A stretch of DNA of 64,000 nt from Phycisphaerales bacterium. Lineage in GTDB: Bacteria; Planctomycetota; Phycisphaerae; Phycisphaerales; SM1A02. Every line of letters begins with the position of its first letter. Within the stretch, counting starts at the first letter, position 1. Location of the stretch: positions 62,001 through 126,000 of the forward strand of contig JAQWNP010000002.1 in NCBI GenBank assembly GCA_029268515.1. Reading direction: 5' to 3'. Of the stretch, positions 4,827-26,395 are shown piece after piece. Made by a program: the position numbers and the translations under genes. The notes beneath the pieces were generated by a model. That model saw only the letters and a list, made by a program, of their open reading frames with translations, searched no databases and was not told the DNA's origin.

Positions 4827-5491
4827 CCGCCAGTAGTCAGTCGCATGGTCGGGCCCGGCACAACACCAATATCCAGGAGTGCGGCTCGAACCTCTGGGTT
4901 GTTGGGGTTCATTTCCCATGCAAGCGATAAGGCGCGGAATGCTTCTTGCTTCTCGCCGAGTCGCATAGCAAGCCGAGCCGCTTGTAGATAAGGCTTGATA
5001 TTTTCGTCTGCATCCACAGCCAGCGCAGTCCGCAATGCCTCGCGAGCAGTATCGGGGTCATCCGCTTCCACTGCCACACGAGCAAGGCGGAGCCAGTCTT
5101 CTGATGAAGATGTCGTGTTTGCTCGGTCTCGCAAGTAGGCGAAGAGATCGTCCCATGCTTCTTGCTGCTCGAGCGTGTCGGCAAGATCGCGAGCGATCAC
5201 GGCATTCGCTGGCTGCAAGGTTGAGGCTATTTCAAGTGAGCGCCGTGCCACGGTCAGATCGCCCGCTTCCAAAGCTGAGTGGCCAAGCGCGGCTTGGGAT
5301 CTCCAATCGGTCGGCTCACGCTCAACAAGTTGGCCATACCACTCAACAGCGGCTGGCCAATCGGCAATCGATGTGGCCCGCTCTGCGTTTCGCCGGAGGG
5401 CGTGACTGGGCACGTGACTAGAACAGGCAATGAGACTGCCGCCGAGCAGTAGTCCCGCGAGGACGATCGAGGGTGGATGTAGTAGATTCAC
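4823..5491 (-). CDS. TPR lipoprotein
   Basis: A 222-residue envelope lipoprotein starting with GTG at 5491. Its signal peptide ends in the lipobox LIAC, with Cys23 the expected lipidated residue. The rest is almost entirely TPR-like helical pairs (for example WPAAVEWYGQLVEREPTDW and DLTVARRSLEIASTLQP), probably four or five units. Such proteins serve as adaptors in envelope complexes; the partner here is unknown. It is the first gene of a two-gene unit with the ArsR-methyltransferase and is divergent from the gene at 5499, leaving only 7 bases between start codons, so their promoters must overlap the opposite coding region. Confidence 0.8.
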   Translation of the reverse strand: MNLLHPPSIVLAGLLLGGSLIACSSHVPSHALRRNAERATSIADWPAAVEWYGQLVEREPTDWRSQAALGHSALEAGDLTVARRSLEIASTLQPANAVIARDLADTLEQQEAWDDLFAYLRDRANTTSSSEDWLRLARVAVEADDPDTAREALRTALAVDADENIKPYLQAARLAMRLGEKQEAFRALSLAWEMNPNNPEVRAALLDIGVVPGPTMRLTTGG

Positions 5492-5498
5492 GCCCTAC

Positions 5499-5954
5499 AT
5501 GATACGATTCCCCGCCGGCCAAGTCAGGTCTGGGGACTACCTTGGTGGAACACTCGTGGACAACACACTTCTCATTTGGCCAGTTGAGCAGGGGGCGCGG
5601 GCTGTACAGGTGGTGGTACTTGATCATGTGCTGCCAGATGGAAGTCGCCATTGGGATCTTCTGGTCGCTCGAGATGTGGCCAAGGGATCGCCTTTGTGGA
5701 GTCTGCGGTGTGATGAGCGGCCTGACACAGCCCCGCCAGGCACGTCACTGGCCCTCACGAGAACACCGGACCACAACGCCAAGTGGCTTGATGGCAGCCC
5801 CCGAGAGGTCAGCGGCGGCCGAGGAGTAGCTGAGCGGGTGGCCAGTGGGCTCCTCAGAATTGGATCGTGTGACGCAGCCATTGTGCAATGGGAAGATGGC
5901 CGCACGAGTGTGTGGCGACTTGCGGACGGGCAACTGATGATGCTTGATGACTAG
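5499..5954 (+). CDS. Hypothetical protein
   Basis: A 151-residue protein with no motif I recognise. The ATG at 5499 is preferred to the earlier in-frame ATG at 5430 because the upstream stretch lies in the antisense of the lipoprotein gene. The sequence is rich in beta-strand-like segments (AVQVVVLDHVLPDGSRHWDLL) and has Trp residues near both ends. No signal peptide or membrane segment is visible, so it is probably cytoplasmic. Its stop overlaps the stop of the convergent BFD ferredoxin gene (the bases CTAG at 5951-5954 hold both stops). Confidence 0.6.
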   Translation: MIRFPAGQVRSGDYLGGTLVDNTLLIWPVEQGARAVQVVVLDHVLPDGSRHWDLLVARDVAKGSPLWSLRCDERPDTAPPGTSLALTRTPDHNAKWLDGSPREVSGGRGVAERVASGLLRIGSCDAAIVQWEDGRTSVWRLADGQLMMLDD

Positions 5955-6205
5955 CCGTCAACGCCGCGGTGCCGGTCACGGCCTGCAGCGTAGTTGGGTG
6001 GGCGGACGTCGAGCCCGATGTCCTCGCCTGCTTCCCACTGCCTATGGAGCTGCTCCAAGAAGGGGCGGCACCAACCACAGCCAGTACCAGCACCGAGGCA
6101 ATCAGTCAATTGTGATGCGACTTTGGGACATTCACGCCGCAAGTAGGCGCGAAGCTTGCGTTGGGTGACGTGGAAGCACAGACAGACTTGGTCATCATCC
6201 TGCAT
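5951..6205 (-). CDS. BFD-like [2Fe-2S] protein
   Basis: An 84-residue bacterioferritin-associated-ferredoxin-like protein. The four cysteines expected to hold a [2Fe-2S] cluster are visible as VCLCF near residues 8-10 and GTGCGWC near 39-42, with the usual short helix-turn between. In known systems such domains move electrons to release iron from bacterioferritin or act inside larger oxidoreductases. The start at 6205 (MQDDDQ) lies 11 bases inside the 3' end of the kinase gene, so the two are translationally linked. No bacterioferritin gene is in the window. Confidence 0.8.
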   Translation of the reverse strand: MQDDDQVCLCFHVTQRKLRAYLRRECPKVASQLTDCLGAGTGCGWCRPFLEQLHRQWEAGEDIGLDVRPPNYAAGRDRHRGVDG

Positions 6206-7055
6206 CGGCACTGCTCGAAGGATCTGGTGGTGCAGACCGCTTCTTGAGCCGATGGATGACTTCCTCCATGCTGTCCGGTCGTTTGGCGCGGTCCTTGTCA
6301 ACACAGTCAAGAATGAGATTCGAAAGCGTCTTTGGAATCATCGGGTTGGCCTCGTGCGGCGGGATCGGGTCTGGCACATCAGCCACATCCAGGGTTGAAA
6401 GCATCGACGCATCGCCACCAGATGGCGGCATCGCGGTTGGAATAACTTCGCGAACAAGCACCCAATACATCATCGCGCCGAGGTTGAATATGTCGGTCCG
6501 CTGGTCAATGGCCTCTCGAGAGGCCTGCTCTGGGGCCATGTACCCAGGCGTTCCTTGAATTCGTTTCTTGACGGTACCGATTGGGCACGCCTGGCCGAGG
6601 TCAATGACCTTCACCATCTCCTGTTCGGTGATAAGCACGTTGGTCGGCTTCATATCTGCGTGCACATAGCCACGTTCATGCATATGCCCAAGTGCCTCAG
6701 CAACCTGTACGAACACGCTACAAGCCTTGCCGTACGAACGTGGGAGTTGTTGATCGAGCGTATTCGCATCGATCAATTCCATGATCAAGGCCATACTCTG
6801 AATCTTGAACATCTTCCGTGATTTGACGATCTTCTGCAGTTTGCGAATGGCCGGATGGTCAAGTTTTGACCCAATGCGAAATTCGCGTTGCACCTGTTCG
6901 AGAAAACGGTCATCCTTCTCTTCTCGCAACTCGACGTGCTTGAGAGCCCAGACCTGCTTGCTCTTGGAATCCTGCACAGCGTAGATTGTGGACCTTGCGC
7001 CTTCGCCAATCTTGGCCAGAACGTTGAACCCAGCAATCTTTCTTGGGGCAGCCAT
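6195..7055 (-). CDS. Serine/threonine protein kinase, Hanks type, no membrane anchor
   Basis: A 286-residue soluble kinase that is nearly all kinase domain. Visible motifs: glycine loop IGEGARSTIYAV (17-27), ATP-binding Lys39 in ALKHV, catalytic loop HADMKPTN (132-139) with Asp134, Lys136 and Asn139, metal-binding DLG (152-154) and APE (174-176). The Arg of the usual HRD is Ala, making it a non-RD kinase, and DFG is DLG. It lacks the transmembrane sensor tail common in planctomycete kinases and ends in a short Ser/Pro-rich tail. It overlaps the downstream [2Fe-2S] gene by 11 bases, which hints at shared function; its substrate is unknown. Confidence 0.9.
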   Translation of the reverse strand: MAAPRKIAGFNVLAKIGEGARSTIYAVQDSKSKQVWALKHVELREEKDDRFLEQVQREFRIGSKLDHPAIRKLQKIVKSRKMFKIQSMALIMELIDANTLDQQLPRSYGKACSVFVQVAEALGHMHERGYVHADMKPTNVLITEQEMVKVIDLGQACPIGTVKKRIQGTPGYMAPEQASREAIDQRTDIFNLGAMMYWVLVREVIPTAMPPSGGDASMLSTLDVADVPDPIPPHEANPMIPKTLSNLILDCVDKDRAKRPDSMEEVIHRLKKRSAPPDPSSSADAG

Positions 7056-7120
7056 ATCGTGGATCCACCGTCTCCAGCAAGGGCGGAAAGCGGAAAGGAT
7101 ACCGGGCTGTGGTCAGGGAC

Positions 7121-7927
7121 TCAACGCGGTAAGTCGAGCAACTGCGATCGAAAATCCGCTTCAGGGAAGAGGCGACCGGGGCTCATCAGACTAGGCGAGA
7201 GTTCGCTGTGCAAGTAAACAGCCTCTTCTGGAATACCGCATTCTTGCTGAATACGCTGTACCAGACGAGCCAAGTTGCGGATTTGGCTCGATGTATAGGG
7301 CTGTCGGTCGCCATTCCCGACGAGACAGATACCAATTGAGTGCTCATTATGATCGCGGCCCGCTTCACCGACAACATGCGCTCCGGGCAACTGTTCGATC
7401 CATCGATATCCCACATGAATCTCGCCGTCGGCAAGTCCGTTGCCGTTGCCGAGTAGGAAGTGGTAGCCCAAACCCTGATAGCCCCACGAGAGGTGCTTGC
7501 GATGGATCGACTCAGGCGTGCCGAAGGGATCACCGAGATGGTGAACGACAATACCTGTCCACCGATCACGGTCAAGGCGACCATCATCTGGGAAGAGTAA
7601 GTCGTGCTCAGTTTCTGATCGATCACCCAGCGGCGTGATTTCTACGAGCGGGAATCCCCCTGCAGGCTGCGGCGCGTCGATGGCGAGAATTGCCATTGCA
7701 CCTGTCATCGCAACCGCGAAGGCGGCAAAGACAAACTGCGTGCGGCGGGTTGGACCGCCTGATGAGGTGGGGGTGTGTGTTGTCATGACAGAGGGGCGTC
7801 CATGTCCCGCTGTAGATATATCGGCCAGTCCCCCCCACCCCACTTGAATGGGAACCGCTTCTACTTCCTCGTCTTGCACGCAAAGCGCCGCGTCAGTCTC
7901 CCAGTCCACGCGATTGGAATCACTCAT
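7121..7927 (-). CDS. N-acetylmuramoyl-L-alanine amidase-like protein (amidase_2/PGRP fold)
   Basis: A 268-residue protein with a cytoplasmic N-terminus, one membrane segment at about 65-82 (FVFAAFAVAMTGAMAILAI) and an extracytoplasmic amidase_2-like domain from about 120. Supporting motifs are GIVVHHLGD, YHFLLGNG, HSIGICLVGN and HSELSP...PGRLFP, which match the zinc-ligand and substrate-groove segments of peptidoglycan amidases and PGRPs. The residue before PGRLFP is Ser where Asp or Cys is often seen, so zinc binding needs checking. The start at 7927 makes an ATGA overlap with the small lipoprotein upstream; an internal ATG at 7784 would begin just before the membrane segment. It is the last gene of the clpP-led unit. 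Confidence 0.75.
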   Translation of the reverse strand: MSDSNRVDWETDAALCVQDEEVEAVPIQVGWGGLADISTAGHGRPSVMTTHTPTSSGGPTRRTQFVFAAFAVAMTGAMAILAIDAPQPAGGFPLVEITPLGDRSETEHDLLFPDDGRLDRDRWTGIVVHHLGDPFGTPESIHRKHLSWGYQGLGYHFLLGNGNGLADGEIHVGYRWIEQLPGAHVVGEAGRDHNEHSIGICLVGNGDRQPYTSSQIRNLARLVQRIQQECGIPEEAVYLHSELSPSLMSPGRLFPEADFRSQLLDLPR

Positions 7928-8115
7928 CGGTCGCTCAGGCGTTCTCGAAGCTGTGGTTTCGGGTTGCCAAAGAGGTCATATTCTTCGGCCGACACGCTGC
8001 CGTTTCTTGCTGTGTCGTACTGTTCATATTGGTGTCGCGGCAACTTCTCATCAAAGAGCGGCCGGTAACAACCGGCCAGCGGGGCAATACATACAGCACA
8101 GAGCAATACACGCAT
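7924..8115 (-). CDS. Small lipoprotein
   Basis: A 63-residue protein starting at ATG 8115 (MRVLLCAVC) with a short signal peptide and lipobox LAGC. The mature part is under 50 residues, hydrophilic, and contains one DTARNGSVSAEEYDLFG stretch that resembles an EF-hand loop with an acidic flank. Function unknown. Its stop overlaps the amidase start, which links the two; a role near peptidoglycan is only a guess from the neighbour. Confidence 0.65.
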   Translation of the reverse strand: MRVLLCAVCIAPLAGCYRPLFDEKLPRHQYEQYDTARNGSVSAEEYDLFGNPKPQLRERLSDR

Positions 8116-8141
8116 GACTGGCAGTCTATCGTCGCGGAATC

Positions 8142-8771
8142 TCATGGCGAAGGTGTGGATGACTGGTTGGCGAGCTCTGGTGTGGCGATGCCGCCTGTAC
8201 CTTCGACTCGTTGGCCAGTAGTCAGGTCTTCGTGGAAGACATGTACAAGCAGTGTCTTATTTTTCGCCAGCGAGGCGGTTTGAAGTTGGATAGGCACAAG
8301 GTAGGTGGTGCCGAAGAGCCCTCCACGCCATGCATCGCGTACTTCCGCGGGGCTGAGGATGGCACTGGCAACGACTTCTGGCTCGGCACCAGGGACTGGG
8401 CGCAGAACCTGCGCTTCTATTGGCCCGACCAGCTGGATTGGGCGATTCAACCCATCCGTCGCCGCGACATGGACTTCCAGAGTCTTGGTGTCTTCTGAGT
8501 TGCCAGGCTCAAACCCGGACATTGGCGATACCGTGATCGTGGCAAGCCTTGGAGCAGCCGTCAATTGCCCTGAGAATCGATGTTGCTCTTGCTCGGCAGC
8601 GAGCAGGCCAGCTTCAAGTTCACGTGTGCGGGCCTCCAACTCATCAATTTGACGAAGCAATCCAGCATTCTCGGTTCGAAGGCGAGCGCTCGCGCGTCGT
8701 GATGCCCCGTCACACCCCTGGATCGGCGCAACCATGAGTGCCAGGAGCACGAGCAACCCCCCACGCTTCAT
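8142..8771 (-). CDS. Lipoprotein with N-terminal coiled coil
   Basis: A 209-residue envelope protein with signal peptide and lipobox PIQGC. Residues about 25-65 form a strong heptad-rich helix (LLRQIDELEARTRELEAGL), followed by a beta-rich domain of about 130 residues with no recognised family. The start at ATG 8771 overlaps by one base the TGA of the upstream clpP; an in-frame GTG at 8774 also exists. The coiled coil suggests it forms oligomers or spans from the outer membrane. Function unknown. Confidence 0.7.
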   Translation of the reverse strand: MKRGGLLVLLALMVAPIQGCDGASRRASARLRTENAGLLRQIDELEARTRELEAGLLAAEQEQHRFSGQLTAAPRLATITVSPMSGFEPGNSEDTKTLEVHVAATDGLNRPIQLVGPIEAQVLRPVPGAEPEVVASAILSPAEVRDAWRGGLFGTTYLVPIQLQTASLAKNKTLLVHVFHEDLTTGQRVEGTGGIATPELANQSSTPSP

Positions 8772-9400
8772 CACTTCTTCTCGGCGGCCGGATTTTCCGG
8801 AATCAAGCGATCAATCACTCGATCAACAAGCCCATACTTTTCCATCTGAGGAGCATCGAGCCAGAAGTTTCGTTCGCAATCCTTGCCGACTTGCTTGACC
8901 GTCTTGCCTGTTGCATCAGCGTAGATGCCATACAACACCTCACGTAGTCGCAGTATTTCGCGGGCTTCGATTTCGAGATCTGTCGCCTGCCCTTCAAGCA
9001 CTCCACCGAGCAGCGGCTGATGCATCAGGTTCTTGGAATTGGGCAGCGAGCAACGCTTCCCCGGAGCGCCCGAGCAGGCTATGAGCGAGCCCATTGACGC
9101 AGCCTGACCGATGATGAAGGTTGCGACATCGCAGGGGATGAAGTTCATCGTGTCGATGACACCGAGCCCTGCCGTCACACTGCCGCCAGGCGAGGTGATG
9201 TACAAATTAATATCGGCCTCGGGGTCCTCGTTCGCGAGGAAGAGCATCTGCGCGACGATCAGATTCGTCGAGGCGTCGGTCACTGGACCGGCGAGGAAGA
9301 CAATGCGGTCCTTGAGAAGCCGCGAGTAGATGTCATAGGCACGCTCGCCGCGACCTTCTTTTTCAATGACGATGGGGATCAACTGGGACATGTCTATCAA
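8771..9400 (-). CDS. clpP: ATP-dependent Clp protease proteolytic subunit (second copy)
   Basis: A 209-residue ClpP with all three catalytic residues in context: Ser in GQAASMGS, His in LMHQP and Asp in CERNFWLD. The strand motif [10 protein letters not shown] and the handle region are normal. ClpP makes 14-mer chambers that degrade proteins fed by ClpX or ClpA. It overlaps the other clpP (9397-10101) by ATGA, and the pair probably forms a mixed or two-ring ClpP1P2 particle, as known in other bacteria with two subunits. No clpX is in the window. Confidence 0.95.
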
Positions 9401-10101
9401 GCGTCCTTCTTCGTCTTCTTGGGTTCTGGTAACTCACAAACTTCATCGACGAGGCCGTAGGCCTTGGCTTCAGCTGCGGTGAAGTACTTGTCTCGTTCTG
9501 AGTCAGCCGACACAGTCTTGTACGGCTGGCCGGTGTGATCAGCAAGAATATGGTTGAGTGTTTCCTTGGACCTGATGATCTCTTCGGCCTGAATCTTGAC
9601 GTCAGAAGCTTGGCCGGTCACGCCACCATAAGGCTGGTGAATCATCACCTTGGCGTGTGGCAGAATGTGCCGCTGCCCCGCCTCGCCCGCCGCAAGAAGC
9701 ACGGCCCCGCCGCTATAGGCACGACCTATGCAGTAGGTCGCGACATCACTCGAAATGAACCGCATCGTGTCGTACAAGGCGAGCGTGTCATCGACCGCAC
9801 CGCCTGGACTGTTGATATAGAAGTTGATCTGCTGACCCTTCTTCTGGTCTTCGAGGTACAGCATCTGCATCATCACCCGAGCAGCTGAGGCCTGGTTGAT
9901 CTCGCCGACGAGAAAGATGACGCGGTTTTCCAGCAACAACTCGTCGAGTGACATCTCGCGGGTTCGCTGGTACGAGCCCGACGCCATGACGGGGGGCATT
10001 GTGGAGACTGGTCGAGGCACCTCGATATACATTGCGGTGTGTGCGTCCTGTGTCAAGGGCGATTGTGCTCGCCTAGAGTGAGAGTAGGGATCATACTTCA
10101 T
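9397..10101 (-). CDS. clpP: ATP-dependent Clp protease proteolytic subunit (first copy)
   Basis: A 234-residue ClpP-family protein. The nucleophile sits in GRAYSGGA rather than the usual GxxASMG, the His is in MIHQP, and the Asp in SERDKYFT; all three catalytic residues are present. An N-terminal extension of about 50 residues, longer than usual, precedes the core. The start at 10101 has GGGAGG only three bases upstream, closer than normal, so translation may instead begin at ATG 10032 (MYIEVPRP). It leads a unit with the second clpP, two lipoproteins and an amidase-like gene. Confidence 0.93.
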
Positions 10102-10113
10102 GTACCTCCCGAA

Positions 10114-11550
10114 TTAGTGCAATCGCTCACGTGGGCCAAAGTGCCCCGAGTCCATACTTGCCGGAGGCGGCACATCGGTGTCGCCTGGATCCCCAGTCGC
10201 AACATGCAGCGGCAGGCGGATTTCAAATCTGGACCCCGTGCCCTCCTCTGTCTGCAGGACAACTCTCCCCCCATGTGCCGCGGCGATACGGCGCGTGACG
10301 GCCAGGCCAAGCCCGGTACCCCGCTGGCCTCGACTGGAAGCAAATGGCTCAAAAATACTGGTGTGTGAGCCAACTGGAACACCTGGGCCGTTGTCGATGA
10401 CAGCAATGAAGGCCTCTGAACGAGGTTCGTCTACGCCCGTCTCGATACGCACCTCGCCGGAACGTGCTGGAACTGCTTCAAGCGCATTGAGCACGAGATT
10501 GAGAAGGGCTTGATGCAAGGACGCCGCGTCGAATGGCACGTCAGCCATGGGCCCACTGGCATTTTGAAGCTTCACCCGCCGCTGCGAGAATGTGGGCTGC
10601 TGCAACGCAACCACATCATCAACAACGCTCGCAAGCGAGCCTGACTCGATGTCGAGATGACTCGTCCGCGACCACGCAAGCATATTGAAGGTCAGGTCGT
10701 GAATGCGGTCCAGATTGCGAGAAAGAATGGGCCAGCCCTCGCGGGCGAGTTGTAGATCGCCCCGCTGAATCGCGAGTTCAATGGCGCCGGCACCGCCCTG
10801 CAGGCCCTGCAATATATTCTTGATGGCATGGCTCACAACGGCGATTGTCTCGCCCATAGCGGCGAGACGGTCCCGCTCGCCAACGCGGCCAGCTTCGTCG
10901 ATGGTCTCAAAAAGCCACACGGCAAGTTCCGCAACACCTTGACACCACGACTCTGGAGGCTCGCGAAAATCTAGGACAATCCAGCATTGTCGGTTGCCAA
11001 GGGAAATCGGAACCCGAATCGAGTGCTCACCCGCAGCTCCTTCGACCGTGACTGCGTCGGCTTGAATCGCAGTAGCAAGCGACGAACAGAACGCGGGCAA
11101 TTGCAATGCGTCCGGCTGCTCCTCGCGAGTGGCAATTGACCACAACATGGCCAGCACGCGGCCCTGCACCTCGCCAGATGGCGGCAGAAAGCATGGCGGC
11201 GCGGCGCGGCGCGCTGCCTGTGTGTCGCGGGCGGGCCCGGCAATAATGTCTTCCGTCTCAATTATCCGGAGCTGCGTGCAGCCGCACGCAATTGTGTCCC
11301 CCAGGCCAATCGCAGTGATACCAACCGCAGAGCTGCCATTGACAAAGGTGCCATTTGAGGAATTGAGGTCACGCAGTGTCCATTGGTTGCCGTCAGGGGT
11401 GAGTTCAGCATGGCGACGGCTGATGGCCCGATCGCCGAGGGGCATTGCCTCTGACGAGCGGCCAAGTAGTTGTGGCTCACCTGGCGGCAAGGGGAAACGG
11501 CGGCCGCGGTCGGGCCCCTCGATGACCTCAAGTACGAGCATGAGGATCAT
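10114..11550 (-). CDS. Soluble FHA-domain sensor histidine kinase
   Basis: A 478-residue protein. Residues about 5-95 are an FHA domain (LGRSSE, ISRRHAEL, DLNSSNGTFVNG), which binds phosphothreonine peptides. A GAF-like middle region of about 120-230 follows. The HisKA helix has VVSHAIKNILQGL with the phosphoacceptor His, and the ATPase domain shows the N box (LVLNALEAV), G1 (IDNGPGVP) and G2 (GTGLGLAVTRR). There is no membrane segment, so it senses a cytoplasmic signal. The FHA domain could couple Ser/Thr kinase signalling, for example from the kinase at 6195, to a His-Asp relay; that link is inference. The ATG at 11541 is an alternative start. No response regulator is adjacent. Confidence 0.9.
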   Translation of the reverse strand: MILMLVLEVIEGPDRGRRFPLPPGEPQLLGRSSEAMPLGDRAISRRHAELTPDGNQWTLRDLNSSNGTFVNGSSAVGITAIGLGDTIACGCTQLRIIETEDIIAGPARDTQAARRAAPPCFLPPSGEVQGRVLAMLWSIATREEQPDALQLPAFCSSLATAIQADAVTVEGAAGEHSIRVPISLGNRQCWIVLDFREPPESWCQGVAELAVWLFETIDEAGRVGERDRLAAMGETIAVVSHAIKNILQGLQGGAGAIELAIQRGDLQLAREGWPILSRNLDRIHDLTFNMLAWSRTSHLDIESGSLASVVDDVVALQQPTFSQRRVKLQNASGPMADVPFDAASLHQALLNLVLNALEAVPARSGEVRIETGVDEPRSEAFIAVIDNGPGVPVGSHTSIFEPFASSRGQRGTGLGLAVTRRIAAAHGGRVVLQTEEGTGSRFEIRLPLHVATGDPGDTDVPPPASMDSGHFGPRERLH

Positions 11551-16591: not shown

Positions 16592-17896
16592 TCAATCCCG
16601 CCGCACAATGACAGTGTCATTCTGCCCACCAAAGCCAAATGAGTTGCTGAGGCACACGTCCACTGAAGCCTCGCGGGCCGTATTTGGCACATAATCGAGG
16701 TCGAGTTCGGGGTCGGGGTCGGTCAGATTGATCGTCGGTGGAATCACGCCATTCTTCATGATCAGCAGGCAGGTGATGAGTTCCACCGCGCCAGCGGCGC
16801 AAATGAGGTGCCCCATCATCGACTTGATACTGGTCATCGGAATACGCGGAGCGTTCTCGCCGAAGACTCGCTTGACCGATGCGGTCTCGATTGAGTCATT
16901 CTCTTGGGTGCTCGTGCCATGCGCCGAGATGTAGTGCACGCCCGGCCGGCCGTCCTGGCCCGTAGCCATTGGATCAATGCCCGCCTGCGCCAGCGCTGCG
17001 TGCATCGAAGCGGCCGGGCCACGTCCTTCTGGATGCAGGTCGGTAATCCGGTAGGCATCGGCGCTCGATCCGTAGCCCGTAATCTCGGCGAGGATGTTGG
17101 CGCCGCGTGACTCAGCATGCTTCAAGGTCTCCAGCACGATGACCCCCGAGCCTTCGCCCATCACAAACCCGTCACGCGAGCGGCTGAATGGACGCGACGC
17201 ATGCGTACAGTCGTCGCCTCTGGTTGAAAGTGCCGTCAAACGATTGAAGCCTGTCATGCCAAGCACGTGCAGCATCGTGTGTGTTCCGCCACTGATCATC
17301 ACATCGGCATCGCCTCGCTGCAGAATGTCGCAGGCCTCGCCGATTGCTTGGGTGCTTGCAGCGCAGGCCGTCAGACAATTGAAGGCGGGGCCACGCAAGC
17401 CAAACTCACGAGCGATATGAGCAATTGGCTCGTTCGGTTCCTGAGCCACCTCGTACGCGCAGGCGATGTGCTTCTTGGCCGCTTCGAGCCACTCGCTGTC
17501 ATCAATTGACTCACCATTCCACGCAGACAGGCTTGTCTTCTGATACGAGTCAAAGTCCAATACCCCCTCGCCCGAACCCAGATACAGCCCGCAGCGGCGG
17601 CGATCAAGGCCCTGCATATCACCGAGGCCCGCCGAGTCCCATGCCTGCCGCGCCGCGCCGAGCGCAAAGGCAGTATGCATGCCGGGCTGGCCGTGACGTG
17701 ATGCATCCTCGACATAGTTGGTCCAGTCGTAACCGCGTACCTGGTTCGCAAAATTTGTCGGGAAGGTCGATGCGTCGAATCGATCGATGGCTGCCACAGC
17801 GGTGTCGCCAGCGACCAGTCGCTTCCAGACCGACTCGATGTCATGGCCCATCGGAGTAATCCACCCGGCACCTGTGATAACCACACGGCAACTCAT
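16592..17896 (-). CDS. Beta-ketoacyl-ACP synthase (KAS II/FabF family), active form
   Basis: A 434-residue ketosynthase that elongates acyl-ACP by decarboxylative condensation. The catalytic triad is complete: Cys in LTACAAST, His in SAHGTST and His in MMGHLICAAG. The ending GFGGQNDTVIV is typical of the family. The start at ATG 17896 (MSCRVVITG) gives an ATGA overlap with the upstream KS-like gene; the longer frame would overlap it by over 100 bases. The tight pairing with a triad-less homologue resembles KS-alpha/KS-beta pairs of type II polyketide and aryl-polyene systems, so it may make a specialised acyl chain rather than bulk fatty acids. Confidence 0.9.
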   Translation of the reverse strand: MSCRVVITGAGWITPMGHDIESVWKRLVAGDTAVAAIDRFDASTFPTNFANQVRGYDWTNYVEDASRHGQPGMHTAFALGAARQAWDSAGLGDMQGLDRRRCGLYLGSGEGVLDFDSYQKTSLSAWNGESIDDSEWLEAAKKHIACAYEVAQEPNEPIAHIAREFGLRGPAFNCLTACAASTQAIGEACDILQRGDADVMISGGTHTMLHVLGMTGFNRLTALSTRGDDCTHASRPFSRSRDGFVMGEGSGVIVLETLKHAESRGANILAEITGYGSSADAYRITDLHPEGRGPAASMHAALAQAGIDPMATGQDGRPGVHYISAHGTSTQENDSIETASVKRVFGENAPRIPMTSIKSMMGHLICAAGAVELITCLLIMKNGVIPPTINLTDPDPELDLDYVPNTAREASVDVCLSNSFGFGGQNDTVIVRRD

Positions 17897-19161
17897 GACG
17901 AGGGCCCCTTGGAAAGAATCGTGGCGGTGTTCTGCCCACCCTGGCTTGCCGTAATGACCAGCACATGGCTGAGCGACGTTGGCCTGCCGGGCAATCGCTG
18001 AGTGGCGAGGCACTGCGCCGCAACAGCGAGTTGCACGCCACCGTGTCCGGCGCAGCAGTTGCCGGTTGCGGGCGTAATCAAGATGCGAGGAAGCGTGTCG
18101 GCATGCGTCCCCAGCGCAGCCTGCAAGCCACCAGATTCGCCTGCGTCAATGCCCACAATGCCAAGTCCCATCGGAACAACAGCGTCGATATCCGAAGCCT
18201 TCAAGTTGGCTTGGGTGAGTGCCAGGCTGATGGCATCCCCGATTGCTTCTGCCGAAGCGGCCGTCAAAACGTTGTCTTCGATGCTCTGTGTACAGGCAAG
18301 GCCCGACACAATCGCTTTCATTGTTGCGCCACGCGCCGCAGCATGCTCGACGGATTCGAGTACGAGAATACCGCCGCCTTCGCCAAGCACAGTGCCTGCT
18401 GCATCATCGGCAAATGGGCGAACAAGCGTGGCAGGATCGTCATCGCTCGTGGCAGCAACGACACGGCCAGCACACTGCTGTCGCCAAGTCGCAAGCACGT
18501 TGAGCCGGCTCTCGACGCCTCCAGTAAGACATACATCGGCGGCGCCGCGTTGAATAACACGCATTGACTCGGCCAGTGAGAGTGTGGCGCTCGACTCCCA
18601 ACATGTAACCGTATTGCTCGGTCCTTGACAGTCATGCACGATCGTCACGTGACAGGCGAGCATATTGGGGAGGTACTTCAGCAGCCACAGCGGTGTGAGA
18701 TTCTCAATACCCTCGCGTCCCCAGTGGTGCAGATCAAAGTTCCCATTGTCATCGCGACTTGTGACGAGCGCGGCGCCGAGTTCATTCACATCGGCCGCAA
18801 TCAACCCGGCGCCAATATGGCAGCCCATGCGTGGTGGCGAAATAGTGATCTCACCCTCGCCGCCCCCTGCCGTGACAAGTCCAGCGTCGGCCGTTGCTGC
18901 GAGTGCAGCTGCGACAGCGAGTTCAACGTCGCGGCACATGACCTTGGTCGCCTTGCGGTAATGCTTTGGGACGATCTTGCGAATCGAAAACTCGTCGGCT
19001 GGCAATTCGCCAGCAAACGGACAGGCCCAATTCGAACCATCAAAGGACTCCAGCCGGCGAATGCCAGAACGGCCATCCTTCAGCGCGTCCCACAATGGGT
19101 CGATGCCAATGCCCAGTGCGGTGACGGGTCCGATTCCTGTGATGGCGACTTGGCAGCTCAT
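17893..19161 (-). CDS. Ketosynthase-like protein lacking the catalytic triad (KS-beta/chain-length-factor-like)
   Basis: A 422-residue KAS-fold protein starting at ATG 19161 (MSCQVAITGIG). Aligned by eye from the GP before the active site to the QRG after it, with equal spacing, its downstream partner has Cys where this protein has Glu (TCWESSAT). The HGTST region is replaced by VPMGLGI, and MGHLICAAG by TGNCCAGHGG, so both catalytic His residues are also missing. The fold-level motifs remain (GGxESRLN, GEGGGILVLES). It is translationally coupled to the active ketosynthase and probably forms a heterodimer with it, acting on chain length or stability. Evidence for heterodimer formation is by analogy only. 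Confidence 0.85.
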   Translation of the reverse strand: MSCQVAITGIGPVTALGIGIDPLWDALKDGRSGIRRLESFDGSNWACPFAGELPADEFSIRKIVPKHYRKATKVMCRDVELAVAAALAATADAGLVTAGGGEGEITISPPRMGCHIGAGLIAADVNELGAALVTSRDDNGNFDLHHWGREGIENLTPLWLLKYLPNMLACHVTIVHDCQGPSNTVTCWESSATLSLAESMRVIQRGAADVCLTGGVESRLNVLATWRQQCAGRVVAATSDDDPATLVRPFADDAAGTVLGEGGGILVLESVEHAAARGATMKAIVSGLACTQSIEDNVLTAASAEAIGDAISLALTQANLKASDIDAVVPMGLGIVGIDAGESGGLQAALGTHADTLPRILITPATGNCCAGHGGVQLAVAAQCLATQRLPGRPTSLSHVLVITASQGGQNTATILSKGPSS

Positions 19162-19286
19162 GGCCGTGGATTGTATGACTCGGGCACGCCGGCCGTACGA
19201 CTCGGACCAAAGCCCATACGCTGACGGCATGTCTATTGAAGTGAGCAAGGCAACATTGGCAATTGGCATTCCTGCCGCAGCCATGA

Positions 19287-19400
19287 TCATTGACGCCGAT
19301 TATGGGCATCATTGGCCTGATCGAAGGCATCGTGTATCTGGCCTGCCCGGACCAACGCTTCTATGACACCTCTATGGCTGGCGAGAAGACCTGGTTCTAG
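19287..19400 (+). pseudogene. C-terminal remnant of a TM2-domain membrane protein
   Basis: The frame ending at 19400 reads, from a TTG at 19290, LTPIMGIIGLIEGIVYLACP and then DQRFYDTSMAGEKTWF. The pattern IIGLIEGIxYL followed by sD..FY and a terminal WF matches the end of TM2-domain proteins. A TGA at 19284-19286 blocks the frame upstream, and no first TM2 helix with its GxxGxHRFYLG signature is seen in the other frames nearby. The stop overlaps the stop of the convergent DAHP synthase gene, as expected for a once-intact gene. It could still be a tiny expressed peptide; a decayed gene is more likely. Confidence 0.5.
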
Positions 19401-20944: not shown

Positions 20945-21682
20945 ATGTCATATGCCACCATCGCCGGAACCGGACTCATTCCCCTTCTCTCTCGCATCGT
21001 GCTTGGTGCGGGCTTCTTCTTTGCCGGGTGGCATGCCTGCTTCAATGAAGTGCCCTTTACCCAGCAAGAGATCCGCATTCTGGAGGATGGCCCGGCAGTG
21101 CCGGTCCAGGTCTCTCTTCAAAAAGAGGCCCCCCCAGCAGCGGCACCTGCCCCAGCAGCGGCACCTGTAGAGAAGCCAGTGGCTGAAACCGCCCCCGAGC
21201 CCAAGCCGGATGCTGTGGCAGAAACGCCACGCCCAATTGGGCCCCTTGCCGGCGCTACACCGAGCAAAGGCGGCGTCATGCGAGCTGCAGCCGAGCGAAT
21301 CACCATCCAACTACGTACAGGCGGAGTGGGCGAGTTTTCTGAGCCACTGGCCTGGGCCGCAGCTGTTGCCAGCCTTGTCGGCGGTGCCCTGCTCTTTATT
21401 GGCCTCTTGAGCCGCCTCTGGGCCTTTGCCATGGCCGTCATGCTCGGGGCATCATTTTGGTTCTCCAGTGTTGTGGAGGCAGGCATGTTCTCCACCGATC
21501 CATTCCTGTGGACCTCGAGCCAGCAAACCTTCCACGAGATGTTCGCCACACTCGCCTTCTTTGTGCTGGCCGTCGGCATCCTGATGACTGGGCCAGGTGC
21601 GCTGTCGGTCGATGGAAGTATTCGCTCGAAGCCGCGGGTAGAGCCCTCAACAAGCCTCTCTTCCTCGAGCGACATCAAGTAA
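20945..21682 (+). CDS. DoxX-like membrane protein with an Ala/Pro-rich loop
   Basis: A 245-residue inner-membrane protein with four predicted helices in DoxX order: about 12-30, then after a long insert about 135-155, 158-178 and 195-215. The first loop is expanded by about 70 residues of Pro, Ala, Glu and Lys (repeats such as APAPAAAP), which is unusual, as DoxX proteins are usually about 130-150 residues. A conserved-looking SQQTFHEMFATLAFFVLA segment ends the domain. Role unknown; relatives affect redox or sulfur metabolism. It precedes the VWA/ExbB/ExbD operon by 79 bases and may or may not be co-transcribed. Confidence 0.75.
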   Translation: MSYATIAGTGLIPLLSRIVLGAGFFFAGWHACFNEVPFTQQEIRILEDGPAVPVQVSLQKEAPPAAAPAPAAAPVEKPVAETAPEPKPDAVAETPRPIGPLAGATPSKGGVMRAAAERITIQLRTGGVGEFSEPLAWAAAVASLVGGALLFIGLLSRLWAFAMAVMLGASFWFSSVVEAGMFSTDPFLWTSSQQTFHEMFATLAFFVLAVGILMTGPGALSVDGSIRSKPRVEPSTSLSSSSDIK

Positions 21683-21761: not shown

Positions 21762-22667
21762 ATGAGCGCACCCACCTCTTCAATTTCAACTGGACCGGGG
21801 CACAGCCTGCGACGGCTTGGGCCCTGGACCATTTCACTTGCTGTGCACGCGGGGCTGATCGCCATTGGATTTGCCTTGACATGGTCCATCATTCGGCTTG
21901 ATGAACGATTGCCTTCGCCCATTGTGACCTCCTCTGACATCGTGCTGACACCAGTCATGCCACTGCACACTGGGACGGCTACTGAGTCGTCTTCAACGGC
22001 CACGAGCATCCCAATGCCGACCATTACATCCACACCGACCGACACACCACGAATTGATGGGCCCGCACCGGCCGCCGCAAGCAGTGTCAGTACCCCAACT
22101 GCGTTCGCAGGCGCATCGATGCAGCAGGCCCGTGAAGTCGTTTTTGTCATCGATGTCAGCGGCAGCATGATTGCATGGATCCAATTTGTCATCGACGAAG
22201 TAGAGCGAACCCTCGGCTCGATGAGCAGTGATCAGCAATGCGCCGTTATCTGTTTCGCAGGCGAGGATGTCCGCGTGATGCCGCGGGGTGGACTGGCATT
22301 CGCGAGCCCAGCCACAGTGACGTCACTCATCGATGAATTGCGGACAACTGCATCGCAGCGATTTGGCGTTGGTTCAGACCCCGTACCTGGCCTCCAAGCC
22401 GCAGTCGCAATGAAACCAGAATTGATCATGCTGCTCAGCGAAGGCCTAGATGGGCGGGGTCGATGGGCAGTTGACCGCGACGCAACGCTTACAGCGCTCG
22501 ACTCCATGAATCCACGTCGCGGGTCAGGGAATCGGCCCATCCGCATCAGTTGTATCAGACTTGTCACGGACAACTCGCCCGACGAGGCTGCCTTAATGGG
22601 CGAAATCGCCAGCCAACATGGCGATGGCCACGTACACCGCGTCACCCTGGAGGAACTTGATCGATGA
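21762..22667 (+). CDS. Membrane-anchored VWA-domain protein
   Basis: A 301-residue protein. One membrane helix lies at about 24-44 (SLAVHAGLIAIGFALTW), the same position and style as the anchor of TonB-like proteins. A Ser/Thr/Pro linker of about 70 residues follows. The von Willebrand A domain starts near 125 with VVFVIDVSGSM, a complete DxSxS metal-binding motif, and runs to the end. The start is ATG 21762; a TTG lies just before it. The last bases overlap the ExbB-like gene (ATGA). With a proton channel next door, the linker and VWA domain probably reach into the periplasm as the moved or recognition part. Confidence 0.85.
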   Translation: MSAPTSSISTGPGHSLRRLGPWTISLAVHAGLIAIGFALTWSIIRLDERLPSPIVTSSDIVLTPVMPLHTGTATESSSTATSIPMPTITSTPTDTPRIDGPAPAAASSVSTPTAFAGASMQQAREVVFVIDVSGSMIAWIQFVIDEVERTLGSMSSDQQCAVICFAGEDVRVMPRGGLAFASPATVTSLIDELRTTASQRFGVGSDPVPGLQAAVAMKPELIMLLSEGLDGRGRWAVDRDATLTALDSMNPRRGSGNRPIRISCIRLVTDNSPDEAALMGEIASQHGDGHVHRVTLEELDR

Positions 22668-23410
22668 TCATTCGACGTCTCGTGCCAGCATTGGCAATTC
22701 TGCTATTCGCTTCGCCAGTCGCCGCAGCACCAACAGCGAGAAGTTTTGCATCCGCCTTCTTTATCTCTCGCGGAGCAAATGGCGACATTGAAATCCTCGG
22801 AACCAGCGTGACGTGGTTGCTCTTGTGCATGTCTGCAGCGGCCGTTGGCCTTGCTATTGCCATGGCTATGGACAACCGCCGCCAGACAATTATGCCCGAC
22901 GGCTTTGTGAAAGCAATGGAAGCTGACATCAACAGCAGCCGGTTTCGTGAAGCCATGTCGCGAGCTGAGTCTGACGAGAGCTTCATCGGACAAATTATGG
23001 CCGACGCCATGCGGCAAGCGCCGCACGGCTGGAAGGCCGTGGTGCGAGCACTTGAGCAGGCTTCAGAAGAGCACACACTGACAAGACTTCGCCGTATCGA
23101 AGTGCTCAACATCATCGGGCAGGTCAGCCCAATGATCGGTTTGTTTGGCACGGTCTACGGCATGATTTTGGCTTTCTCCGCCATCGTCGCCTCGGGCGGC
23201 GCGGCCGACCCGGTCATGCTCGCCGGCGGCATCGGGACCGCACTTACCACAACGTTTTGGGGCTTGGTCGTGGCTATTCCATCGCTCGCGGCCTGCGCGA
23301 TGTTGCGAGGAAAAATCGATGCCATGACAGCCGAGGCAACGCTCGCGGCCGAGGACTTGCTTGGCCGATTCCGTCCACGACGTGAGAAAAGCCACTCGGA
23401 CACAGCATGA
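22664..23410 (+). CDS. MotA/TolQ/ExbB-type proton channel protein
   Basis: A 248-residue inner-membrane protein with a signal-like first helix (about 5-20), a second helix at about 45-63 and the diagnostic pair of helices near 145-220. The core motif reads VSPMIGLFGTVYGMILAFSAI and then LAGGIGTALTTTFWGLVVAIPS, as in TolQ/ExbB. A cytoplasmic helical stretch lies between. It should form a pentamer that conducts protons and powers an ExbD dimer. It is translationally coupled to the genes on both sides. Confidence 0.93.
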   Translation: MIIRRLVPALAILLFASPVAAAPTARSFASAFFISRGANGDIEILGTSVTWLLLCMSAAAVGLAIAMAMDNRRQTIMPDGFVKAMEADINSSRFREAMSRAESDESFIGQIMADAMRQAPHGWKAVVRALEQASEEHTLTRLRRIEVLNIIGQVSPMIGLFGTVYGMILAFSAIVASGGAADPVMLAGGIGTALTTTFWGLVVAIPSLAACAMLRGKIDAMTAEATLAAEDLLGRFRPRREKSHSDTA

Positions 23411-23856
23411 GTCGGCGCCGTATCGAAACTTCCGTGCAGGCGAACATGACACCACTGATTGATGTGGTGTTCTTGTTGATCGTTTTCTTTGTGCTCGTCT
23501 CTCGCATTGTTGACGAGGACCGGCCGCGGCTGGATCTTCCCTCACCGGTACCACCTGCCACCATGGTTCCTCCTCCCGGACCTCGGGCAATTGTAAGTGT
23601 GGTGGACGGCGCATCGCCGACCTATCACCTCGCGGGCGCTGTATACGAAGCCAACGAACGTGGTCGTGCGGCACTCGGTACTGCCATGGCCGCGTTGGTT
23701 CGCCAGGTGCCGGACACAGCTGTGCAGGTACGCGCCGCACGGAGTACATCATGGGACATGGTCGCTCCCATCCTGGAAGAAGCACGATCGGCTGGGGAGG
23801 CCGCTGGCACCACTATTCGCGTACAACTCGCCACCACGCGGGAGCATGCGCCATGA
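23407..23856 (+). CDS. ExbD/TolR-type protein, first copy
   Basis: A 149-residue protein with a short cytoplasmic head, one membrane helix at about 17-38 beginning LIDVVFLLIVFFVL, and a periplasmic domain. The Asp in the helix (LIDVVF) is the proton-carrying residue of the family. A Pro-rich stretch (PPATMVPPPGP) follows the helix. Overlaps both neighbours by ATGA. It pairs with the second ExbD and the ExbB-like channel. Confidence 0.92.
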   Translation: MSRRRIETSVQANMTPLIDVVFLLIVFFVLVSRIVDEDRPRLDLPSPVPPATMVPPPGPRAIVSVVDGASPTYHLAGAVYEANERGRAALGTAMAALVRQVPDTAVQVRAARSTSWDMVAPILEEARSAGEAAGTTIRVQLATTREHAP

Positions 23857-24317
23857 GCTTGTTGGCTCGCCCCCGCACAGGGCGTACCACTCAAGTGGGC
23901 CTGCAGATCGCCCCACTGATTGATGTCGTGTTCTTGCTGCTGATGTACTTCATGGTGGCAACCGATTTTAGCCCCTCCGAAGAAGTGTTTCGATTGGAGT
24001 TGCCGCCACTCGCTGCGGATATTGCCGATCCACTGGACATCCTCGACGAGCCGCTACGCGTGCATCTGGCAGCGGCAGGTTCGAGCGGTACGTTGGCGCG
24101 TTTGACTCTTGATGGCCCTTGGTCTGTAGCCGGATCACCCGACGGTCTTCGTGACTTCTTGGAGGCGTCCATCACACCACAAGGAACGCTCTTCCTGCCC
24201 GACCACCCGATCATCATCGTGCCCACCGGTCAGGTGGCCTGGTCTCATGTCGTGGAGACATTCAATGCAGCGGTGGCAGCAGGATGCACCAATGTGACGT
24301 TGGAGACGCCCTCGTGA
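23853..24317 (+). CDS. ExbD/TolR-type protein, second copy
   Basis: A 154-residue protein starting at ATG 23853 (MSLLARPRTGR). Its membrane helix begins PLIDVVFLLLMYFMV, again with the proton-relay Asp, followed by a periplasmic domain with the pattern LFLPDHPIIIVPTGQVAWSH near its end. Two different ExbD proteins beside one ExbB suggest a heterodimeric rotor/stator core. The start overlaps the first copy and the end overlaps the next gene by GTGA. Confidence 0.92.
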   Translation: MSLLARPRTGRTTQVGLQIAPLIDVVFLLLMYFMVATDFSPSEEVFRLELPPLAADIADPLDILDEPLRVHLAAAGSSGTLARLTLDGPWSVAGSPDGLRDFLEASITPQGTLFLPDHPIIIVPTGQVAWSHVVETFNAAVAAGCTNVTLETPS

Positions 24318-26395
24318 TTGCTGCCATGCTCACGCTCACCATGCTCAATGTCGGTGACATTGCATCACATCGTGCCGATTGGGCTGATGCAACGAGCGAG
24401 CCTGCCAAGATCGAGGCCGGGTTGTCGTTACTGGATGCGTTGCTCAGAGAGGAATGGAAGAATGAGTTAACGATTGACCTCGCAATGCTCGGACTTGCCG
24501 ATGCCCAACGACATGCCGCCGCAGTAGCGATGATCAATGAGGCATTAGTTGTATCAATGGATGTGGATACAGCCCTCCGATCGCAGGCCGAGCAAGGCGT
24601 GAGAGTGTCGCTTGATGCTGCTCGTTGGGCCCGCGCCCGTGGACTGGCCTGCGCGGCAAAGGCATTGCTCATCGAAGCAGGCGAACAAGATGCGGAGGCA
24701 GCGAAGGTTGAAGCCTTGGTGCATCTTGGCCCGTTACTTGAACGAGATCGCGATGGAAGGGCTCGACGATTGGTCTCGCACCTCTACCTTCGGTCGGGCG
24801 ATACCCACCAAACGTTATCGATTTTGAAGTCCATTCGAGAATCCTCGTCGACAGAACCACTCGAAGATGCCGCAGCAACCGCGGTCTCGCTCCGACTCAA
24901 CGGAGGCAGTCAGTGGCAATCAACCTTGCGAGCAACAAGCGAGCCATGGCAAGTTGTGCTCTATGCCGAGGCTGCAATGGCAGCCCTACAACACGCAGAC
25001 CGACCCCTCGAAGCACTGCGTGTGTCGGTCGCTGCGAACGTGTCACTCCAACGATGTGGCATGGACCAACGCGATGCCTTTGTGATCGCCTCGGCGATGG
25101 CCGCTCGGCTCAATGTACAGAGCATCTCTGACCAAGACATGGTGGATCTCGAGTTGGTCGCGGTCGTGGGTGCCGCCGAAGCCGCGCTTGCCGATGGCCA
25201 GCCAATGCAAGCCGCCAGCTGGCTTCGTTTAGCCCTTCAGGGCGTAGCCCCCTCCCTACCAGCCAGCGAAGCATCGACTGTACTCGCTCAAGCAGAAGCT
25301 GCAAGCGGCCAGATGCTCGCGGCTATGCGAGCGTGGATGTTTGCAGCTGAACAGCGAGGGCCACAGACCGCTAGGCGAATCGACCAAGCGGCCAGCATTG
25401 CGGCACGCCTTGCTCGCGGTCCGCATCGTGACGAGGCATTGGCCGTACTGGAACTGGCTGCAACATCCGGTGAACGGATGGCTGCTTGGACCCGCACGTT
25501 GGCGGCGATTGAAGTGACGATGGGGACTATTGATGTGGCAGTTGAGCGGCTGCAACAGATCCCACCAGGAGGGGATGATCAAATCGAAGCCATGCGAGAG
25601 ATCGGCCATGTGCTGCGGGATCGAGCGCAACGATTGGGGGGTTGGCAAACCGGCGATGATGACTCGCTTCAGGTTGCCTATGCCTCGGCCTTAGCAGCCG
25701 CGGCACAGCAACACAATCATCTCAGGTCGGCCAAGGCGGAGCCAATAGCCGCTGGGCTTGCAGCAATAATTGTTTACTCCACCCTGGAGCAAGACGGCCC
25801 TGCAGCCGCAAGGGCAATAAGTGAAAATTTGAAGGCGCTCACGTGGCTGACAGGGGACGATCGTCTCCAGCTCGATGCCGTTCTCGCTGCTACTGCAGGC
25901 GATGCTGATGGCTTACGAGCAGTACTTGCTCGCGCGCGTGATGCTGACTCAATTACCCGTCATGTGCTGCAACGAGCGGGTTCTCTGAGCGTGGAAGTCG
26001 CGGCCAGCGTGGTGGGTACTTTTGAGTCGCTCCCCCCGCCCAGCGGCCAACCCGATGCAATCCTCGCAATCGCCGAAGTACTGCGACGAGCCGATCAGTG
26101 CGATGATGCCGTGAAGTGGTACGACGCTGTACTCGCAAGCGACCCATCACTCTTTGCAGCAGTACTCGGTCGCTGCGATTGCCTTCGGCACTCCGATGAT
26201 CGAGCAATGCTCGCTGAAGCCGCCCGTGGCTACCGCCGCATTGCCGCGATGCCACGCTCAGACAATCCAGACCGCTGGCGAGCAGCGAATACACGGCTGC
26301 TGGAAGTCCTCCGACGAGCAGGAGCAAACCGTGCGAGGCTCGATGCCATGCTGGCCCGTCTGCAAGCAATCGATCCAGACATCTCTGACCACTGA
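24314..26395 (+). CDS. Large alpha-helical repeat protein (TPR-like)
   Basis: A 693-residue protein with GTG start at 24314 overlapping the ExbD stop. A short hydrophobic N-terminus (MIAAMLTLTML) may be a weak export signal. The rest is almost wholly helical and Ala/Leu/Arg-rich, with TPR-like pairs, clearest near the C-terminus (about 595-640, AEVLRRADQCDDAVKWYDAVLASDP split over two helices). No catalytic motif seen. As the last gene of the VWA-ExbB-ExbD-ExbD operon it is probably a scaffold for that machine. Confidence 0.75.
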   Translation: MIAAMLTLTMLNVGDIASHRADWADATSEPAKIEAGLSLLDALLREEWKNELTIDLAMLGLADAQRHAAAVAMINEALVVSMDVDTALRSQAEQGVRVSLDAARWARARGLACAAKALLIEAGEQDAEAAKVEALVHLGPLLERDRDGRARRLVSHLYLRSGDTHQTLSILKSIRESSSTEPLEDAAATAVSLRLNGGSQWQSTLRATSEPWQVVLYAEAAMAALQHADRPLEALRVSVAANVSLQRCGMDQRDAFVIASAMAARLNVQSISDQDMVDLELVAVVGAAEAALADGQPMQAASWLRLALQGVAPSLPASEASTVLAQAEAASGQMLAAMRAWMFAAEQRGPQTARRIDQAASIAARLARGPHRDEALAVLELAATSGERMAAWTRTLAAIEVTMGTIDVAVERLQQIPPGGDDQIEAMREIGHVLRDRAQRLGGWQTGDDDSLQVAYASALAAAAQQHNHLRSAKAEPIAAGLAAIIVYSTLEQDGPAAARAISENLKALTWLTGDDRLQLDAVLAATAGDADGLRAVLARARDADSITRHVLQRAGSLSVEVAASVVGTFESLPPPSGQPDAILAIAEVLRRADQCDDAVKWYDAVLASDPSLFAAVLGRCDCLRHSDDRAMLAEAARGYRRIAAMPRSDNPDRWRAANTRLLEVLRRAGANRARLDAMLARLQAIDPDISDH

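Follow-up and report, generated by a model that had tools for sequence, protein, structure and literature searches.

Can a von Willebrand factor A (vWA) protein take the place of TonB or TolA as the arm of a proton-driven envelope motor? This question is raised by an operon in a 64,000-nucleotide stretch of DNA from a Phycisphaerales bacterium (GenBank assembly GCA_029268515.1, contig JAQWNP010000002.1, positions 62,001 to 126,000), hereafter the window, to which all positions below refer unless a contig or locus is named. Here, a gene for a TonB-like anchored VWA protein is followed by genes for ExbB, two different ExbD proteins, and a long helical protein. In Ton and Tol motors, a pentamer of ExbB surrounds a dimer of ExbD. 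The original prediction, made from the sequence of the window, described the operon as a possible new proton-driven envelope machine. In this study, we found that the gene set, its order, and the motor and docking residues recur in relatives, and that the VWA protein has a predicted vWA head. We consider it fairly likely that the operon encodes a machine of the envelope that is driven by protons and transduces force in the manner of TonB and TolA.

Gene set and its recurrence in relatives

The five genes lie on the plus strand at 21762-26395, as had been predicted, and were confirmed in the open reading frame (ORF) list, in the raw sequence, and by Pfam or structural evidence. The VWA gene (21762..22667; 301 residues from ATG) starts at ATG 21762 or TTG 21759 and ends at 22667. 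It is followed by the genes for ExbB (22664..23410, 248 residues), ExbD1 (23407..23856, 149 residues), ExbD2 (23853..24317, 154 residues), and a 693-residue protein read from GTG 24314 (24314..26395). Each gene overlaps the next by 4 bases (ATGA at 22664, 23407, and 23853; GTGA at 24314). A DoxX-like membrane protein of 245 residues, not named in the original prediction, is encoded upstream on the same strand (20945..21682; PF07681, 31.4 bits against a cut-off of 23.6), and 76-79 bases separate the end of its gene from the start of VWA. Homologues occupy the same 5' position in relatives, and the DoxX-like gene is probably the first gene of the operon.

When 298 genomes of the class were searched with the VWA protein, 219 gave matches. 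Since vWA domains are so common, gene neighbourhoods were examined in place of VWA matches: 40 stretches, and 50 named-genome loci found in a second scan with a profile from the first set. Among the matches listed, VWA, ExbB, and two ExbD genes stood on one strand in 28 of the 40 stretches and 38 of the 50 named loci; ExbD1 preceded ExbD2 in 66/66 full loci, and DoxX led the set in 19/28 full stretches and 28/38 full named loci. The window is thus not the sole case of this order, which was found in 66 further loci, or 64 when two duplicates (L066/L128 and L070/L126, with identical VWA C-termini) are subtracted; L072 and L108 are almost identical. The 40 stretches include L055, a misplaced fetch from the wrong place of genome G267, and L074 is cut by a contig end. 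Twelve named loci lacked the full set: four are likewise cut by contig ends (L085, L087, L090, and L106), and the stretches around the remaining eight vWA genes held no ExbB. Given its recurrence in 66 loci, the gene set is not due to chance.

To relate the motors to one another, 67 ExbB rows were placed in a quick tree. The ExbB proteins of 43 VWA-linked loci formed one clade (Shimodaira-Hasegawa-like approximate likelihood ratio test, SH-aLRT, 96), which split into subclades of 28 rows (SH-aLRT 99) and 15 rows (88). DoxX was present in 28/28 loci of the former, whereas it was found in 0/15 of the latter. Two VWA-linked loci from further afield (L170 and L178) and a possible third (L184, whose VWA protein has S-G-L-F-H) branched outside the clade. 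The single clade is suggestive only, because the first two sets of loci had been chosen through VWA.

Motor subunits, VWA protein, and helical protein

Conservation was read from six alignments (A1-A6) that take in part of the loci (27, 21, 23, 27, 32, and 15 rows). ExbB matched PF01618 at 88.8 bits (cut-off 22.9), and ExbD1 and ExbD2 matched PF02472 at 47.3 and 51.3 bits (cut-off 25.4). The solved relatives found by profile were TolQ, ExbB, and MotA for ExbB, and ExbD and TolR for ExbD2. Thr163, Thr192, Thr196, and Thr197 of ExbB were invariant in 27/27 aligned rows. Set beside E. coli ExbB and TolQ, the window's ExbB shares their GTV..G motif and has Thr in place of their Glu. Asp19 of ExbD1 (21 rows) and Asp24 of ExbD2 (23 rows) were also invariant. 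A MotA_ExbB domain with pore threonines and ExbD domains with the membrane Asp are therefore both present, and the conserved channel residues agree with the prediction of an ExbB proton channel and an Asp in both ExbD helices.

The VWA protein scored under the Pfam cut-off (20.8 against 27 bits). In an AlphaFold 2 model of its 301 residues (mean predicted local distance difference test, pLDDT, 80.9), a helix at residues 19-48 (21816..21905) was followed by a low-confidence linker at 49-117 and a vWA domain at 118-300. The modelled head aligned over 159 residues with solved vWA domains (Z up to 18.8), and it is predicted to be a clear vWA fold despite the sub-cut-off Pfam score. Six columns were invariant among 27 aligned VWA rows (mean column identity 29%), and two of them are Ser25 (21834-21836) and His29 (21846-21848) of the membrane helix. 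This pair was kept in 27/27 and 32/32 rows (A4 and A5), and its spacing is the same as that of S16/H20 in E. coli TonB and S18/H22 in TolA. With the two duplicate loci counted, the S-x3-H motif was found in the membrane helix of 66/67 VWA proteins from full loci; the sole miss, L127, is truncated at its 5' end. The motif fell within the most hydrophobic stretch in 63/64 VWA proteins, compared to 7.1% of shuffled stretches. In the exception, L057, the stretch chosen falls in an over-long ORF start, and a later hydrophobic helix has the motif. The S-x3-H helix, the extended linker, and the modelled vWA head agree with the proposal that this protein stands in the place of TonB or TolA.

It had also been proposed that the vWA domain has an intact metal site. 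The first motif of this metal ion-dependent adhesion site (MIDAS), DxSxS, is present as DVSGS (22152..22166). Metal sites of vWA domains usually carry Thr at motif 2 and Asp at motif 3; the window protein has Ser and Glu, respectively. With the window counted, the motif 3 site held Asp or Glu in 11/27 rows of A4 and 19/32 rows of A5. The named loci in A5 were found by a pattern containing DASGS, so that DxSxS is kept there by construction. The first motif is kept, but the site was overstated as intact: motifs 2 and 3 carry Ser and Glu, and the residue at motif 3 varies among relatives. From its sequence, metal binding by the head is possible.

The 693-residue protein matched no family above cut-off in Pfam or NCBIfam. 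Its AlphaFold 2 model was all-helical, with 37 helices listed and a pLDDT of 73.7, and the 50 Foldseek matches listed for this model included tetratricopeptide repeat (TPR) solenoids, every TM-score being low. The model and these weak matches suggest that the protein is TPR-like; it is probably periplasmic. An ORF of more than 300 residues lay 3' of ExbD2 in 62/68 full loci, a count that includes the window and a further locus of its genome, L080. A signal-peptide-like start was assigned by a crude rule to 57/62 of these ORFs, and some of the shorter ORFs, a few at most, may have arisen by chance. In 19/68 loci, the window not being among these, a further secreted protein with matches to TPR lay between VWA and ExbB. 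The DoxX-like protein has a Pro/Ala-rich insert between its first and second membrane helices, which, judged from the charge pattern, is probably periplasmic.

Proposed machine, published relatives, and rival explanations

In the assembly that we infer, ExbB, expected to be a pentamer, and an ExbD1-ExbD2 pair would form a proton-powered motor, with protons passing through the Asp/Thr ring of ExbD and ExbB. The single membrane helix of the VWA protein would dock on the outer rim of ExbB by its Ser/His face, as in TonB and TolA. By means of the disordered linker, the vWA head would reach across the periplasm, and there it could be pulled or cycled by the motor against a partner. The likeliest periplasmic partner or scaffold would be the long TPR-like protein, joined in some relatives by the second secreted TPR protein; the long protein is the best candidate because it is last in the operon in most full loci and has relatives beside similar motors. 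DoxX may act as an accessory inner-membrane subunit in one clade.

Sets of this kind have been proposed before. For the Planctomycetes-Verrucomicrobia-Chlamydiae (PVC) group, Planctomycetes included, Williams-Jones et al. (2025, PMC12204202) proposed that membrane-anchored vWA proteins, one of them from Tichowtungia, act as force transducers, with tolQ, a pair of tolR genes, and a TPR gene alongside; in their AlphaFold 3 models of such sets, the vWA helix lay on the motor via a His. The window's VWA protein likewise has an N-terminal helix in which the motor-binding His is kept, a vWA head, and a disordered linker between the two, and its gene adjoins one tolQ-like gene, a TPR-like gene, and tolR-like genes of two different types. 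By its components and helix, we assign the window's set to this published kind. The machine is thus not new as a class, and the word "new" in the original prediction does not stand at that level. What is new relative to print is that DoxX marks one ExbB subclade, that the gene order differs, and that only 3 of 20 loci outside the window's taxonomic order have VWA. In PMC12204202 the vWA gene is "downstream of" TPR, tolQ, and tolR, whereas the window has VWA first and the TPR-like gene last; the word DoxX, a component of the window's set, does not occur in that text.

A literature search joining TolQ, TolR, and von Willebrand factor returned PMC12204202 only, and searches joining DoxX with ExbD and planctomycete, or DoxX with TolR, returned nothing. 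By word search, ExbB, ExbD, TolR, Tol-Pal, and von Willebrand were absent from the main texts of two essential-gene studies, of Planctopirus (PMC10632474) and Verrucomicrobium (PMC12283558). The vWA domain does not appear in the available part of a paper on MotAB evolution (PMC12505986). Rhodopirellula exbB/exbD were induced under salt stress on arrays, with no tie to the window's operon in the portion of that report available (PMC2754498).

A more specific reading can be offered tentatively. In planctomycetes of Phycisphaerales type, an ExbB-ExbD-ExbD-TPR motor present across the phylum may have been refitted with a TonB-like vWA arm, with DoxX added in one large clade; the Pro-rich insert of the DoxX-type protein may extend into the periplasm. 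The resulting six-part set might supply energy to a process at the outer membrane, for example uptake or remodelling of the surface, in bacteria that lack TonB receptors, as the window's genome does. The loci described here add many conserved, clade-resolved examples to a class of force transducers so far known from prediction only, and they name DoxX as a sixth component, on which the published text is silent. As some related motors of the phylum lack an adjacent vWA gene, the role of the arm can be tested by comparing motors with and without it.

Several observations weigh against a TonB-like machine driven through the VWA protein. The rest of the "SHLS" motif of TonB and TolA is not kept, with Leu at +7 in 5/66 and Ser at +11 in 0/66 proteins; in PMC12204202, the full motif is reported in "many" vWA force transducers and hence need not be present in every one. 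Residues 49-117 showed no "motor box" strand in the monomer model, in which confidence is low for this region. The loci were gathered via VWA, and the counts lean to VWA-linked sets. An ExbD2 search of the phylum was unspecific (matches in 284/294 genomes) and served only to choose 20 loci, one from each of the 20 top-ranked genomes outside the window's taxonomic order. ExbB was labelled in 19 of these loci and VWA in 3. VWA was unlabelled in the other 17 (L177 and L186 being cut by contig ends), 10 of which have a long-TPR relative, and VWA is therefore not obligatory for related motors.

The same 20 loci bear on an unlikely alternative, in which the motor would in truth act on the TPR proteins, and VWA, far from being a pulled arm, would serve in one clade to switch or anchor the motor as a regulator or adaptor. 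Matches to the long-TPR profile were found in 12/20 and to the secreted-TPR profile in 9/20, against just 3/20 for VWA, as this alternative would have it. However, both TPR profiles match loosely, and their counts are upper bounds for true relatives. Moreover, the docking pair is kept in 66/67 VWA helices, and it is not obvious why a protein that only regulates should require it.

In Myxococcus, AglR, AglQ, and AglS comprise one ExbB-like and two ExbD-like proteins, and CglB is a vWA adhesin in the same pathway. The likeness to one ExbB, two ExbD proteins, and a vWA protein would suit an adhesion or gliding motor in which a vWA adhesin is moved along or through the envelope with metal-dependent surface binding. 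We regard this as improbable. CglB is a separate outer-membrane lipoprotein, whereas the window's vWA domain sits on an arm with a predicted anchor in the inner membrane, and the third metal-site motif is not conserved. The recurring neighbours that can be named are of other kinds, adhesion and gliding genes not having been sought systematically. Gliding has nevertheless been suggested as a role for such sets in PMC12204202.

A divergent Tol-Pal or Ton system is more doubtful still. The operon shares with TonB-ExbB-ExbD the S-x3-H helix, the extended linker, and the ExbB/ExbD motor, and with Tol-Pal (TolQRAB-Pal-CpoB) a TolQ/TolR-like motor, an anchored transducer, and a TPR-like operon protein (CpoB in E. 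coli). ExbB matched the NCBIfam tolQ and exbB models at 66.2 and 47.7 bits, and ExbD1 matched tolR at 34.1 bits, but these scores are far under the equivalog cut-offs (221, 206.2, and 127.3 bits). Unlike in Ton, there are two ExbD proteins, and a vWA head replaces the TonB C-terminal domain; unlike in Tol-Pal, the vWA head replaces the TolA C-terminal domain, and the TPR-like protein is far longer than its counterpart. No TolB- or Pal-like match was obtained among nine window proteins scanned against Pfam, the operon proteins included and the other flanking ORFs unscanned. The TonB-dependent receptor barrel (PF00593) had 0 matches in the window's genome at E 0.001, with matches in 3/14 genomes as a control. 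A separate set with a TonB-like helix lies on another contig (C17). On the other side, three OmpA-domain genes elsewhere in the genome (two at contig C20, one adjoining MotA at C16) leave room for a Pal. These results agree with the prediction that the layout is neither Tol-Pal nor TonB.

A Zorya-type anti-phage device, a proton motor plus an effector, has a MotA/ExbB-type channel in common with the operon. This reading can practically be dismissed, as 0/6 operon proteins matched PADLOC models at E 0.001 and the set has a recurring place beside a DAHP synthase gene in relatives.

Chromosomal surroundings and other motors in the genome

Near the operon, the opposite strand holds a tRNA-Leu gene and a gene for class II 3-deoxy-D-arabino-heptulosonate-7-phosphate (DAHP) synthase, and a FliA/WhiG-type sigma factor gene lies downstream in convergent orientation. 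The DAHP synthase and sigma factor genes adjoin the set again in many relatives from the window's family, which indicates that the operon occupies a stable chromosomal place there. Two ORFs on the opposite strand (16592-18013 and 17893-19290) were judged by eye to encode ketoacyl synthases. A downstream gene of about 250 residues recurs in 19 loci, and its copy at L094:6012-6761 has a UvrB/UvrC motif.

The G+C content of the window was 57.9% up to 28 kb and 51.4% beyond, with a step near 28.5 kb. Other fetched parts of the genome had 48-53%, and positions 1-60000 of the window's contig (C2) had 54-59% in 4-kb steps. DAHP synthase, LpxC, and Omp85 are each doubled, with one copy on contig C1 and one in the left part of C2, and two synthase-like neighbour genes are doubled too (67% and 52% identity). 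DAHP synthase matches were found in 38/41 family genomes searched; only the window's genome (G000) had two full-length matches, and two others had two partial ones. The reported contamination of the genome is 4.18%. Ribosomal protein S2 is single, which speaks against a second genome. Most simply, these data can be read to mean that a block at the left of C2 (1-~90500, which takes in window 1-28500) comes from a related organism, probably in a chimeric or contaminated contig or as an acquired block. As the operon family is present in many other genomes, the finding holds whatever the origin of this block.

Further motor genes were observed in the same genome. On C17 (L082, C17:2000-19000), a set at 7773-9532 consists of ExbB and ExbD genes and, after them, the gene for a 303-residue protein that has a TonB-like helix (SVAVH) but matched nothing in Pfam. 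It may be a Ton- or Tol-like set, in a genome in which no TonB receptor was matched. In L081 (C10:53000-70000, 7656-8348), an ExbB-like gene has no adjacent ExbD match, and at C16 a MotA-like gene precedes a gene judged to be MotB. On C1 lies a second VWA set, also with DoxX (L037). A third, in L080 (C14:80000-96000, 4768-11199), encodes VWA, a 380-residue protein without a family match, ExbB, ExbD, ExbD, and an 882-residue protein whose TPR matches are under the cut-off; in its VWA helix, Ala replaces the Ser of S-x3-H.

Among the relatives, L096 (strain ZRK34) and L067 each have a tandem pair of VWA genes and two ExbD2-type genes per cluster; the set in L096 lacks DoxX. In L103, L119, and L061, VWA proteins of about 850-960 residues with an S-x3-H helix are encoded in a stretch without ExbB, and DoxX lies immediately 5' of the very long VWA genes in L103 and L119.

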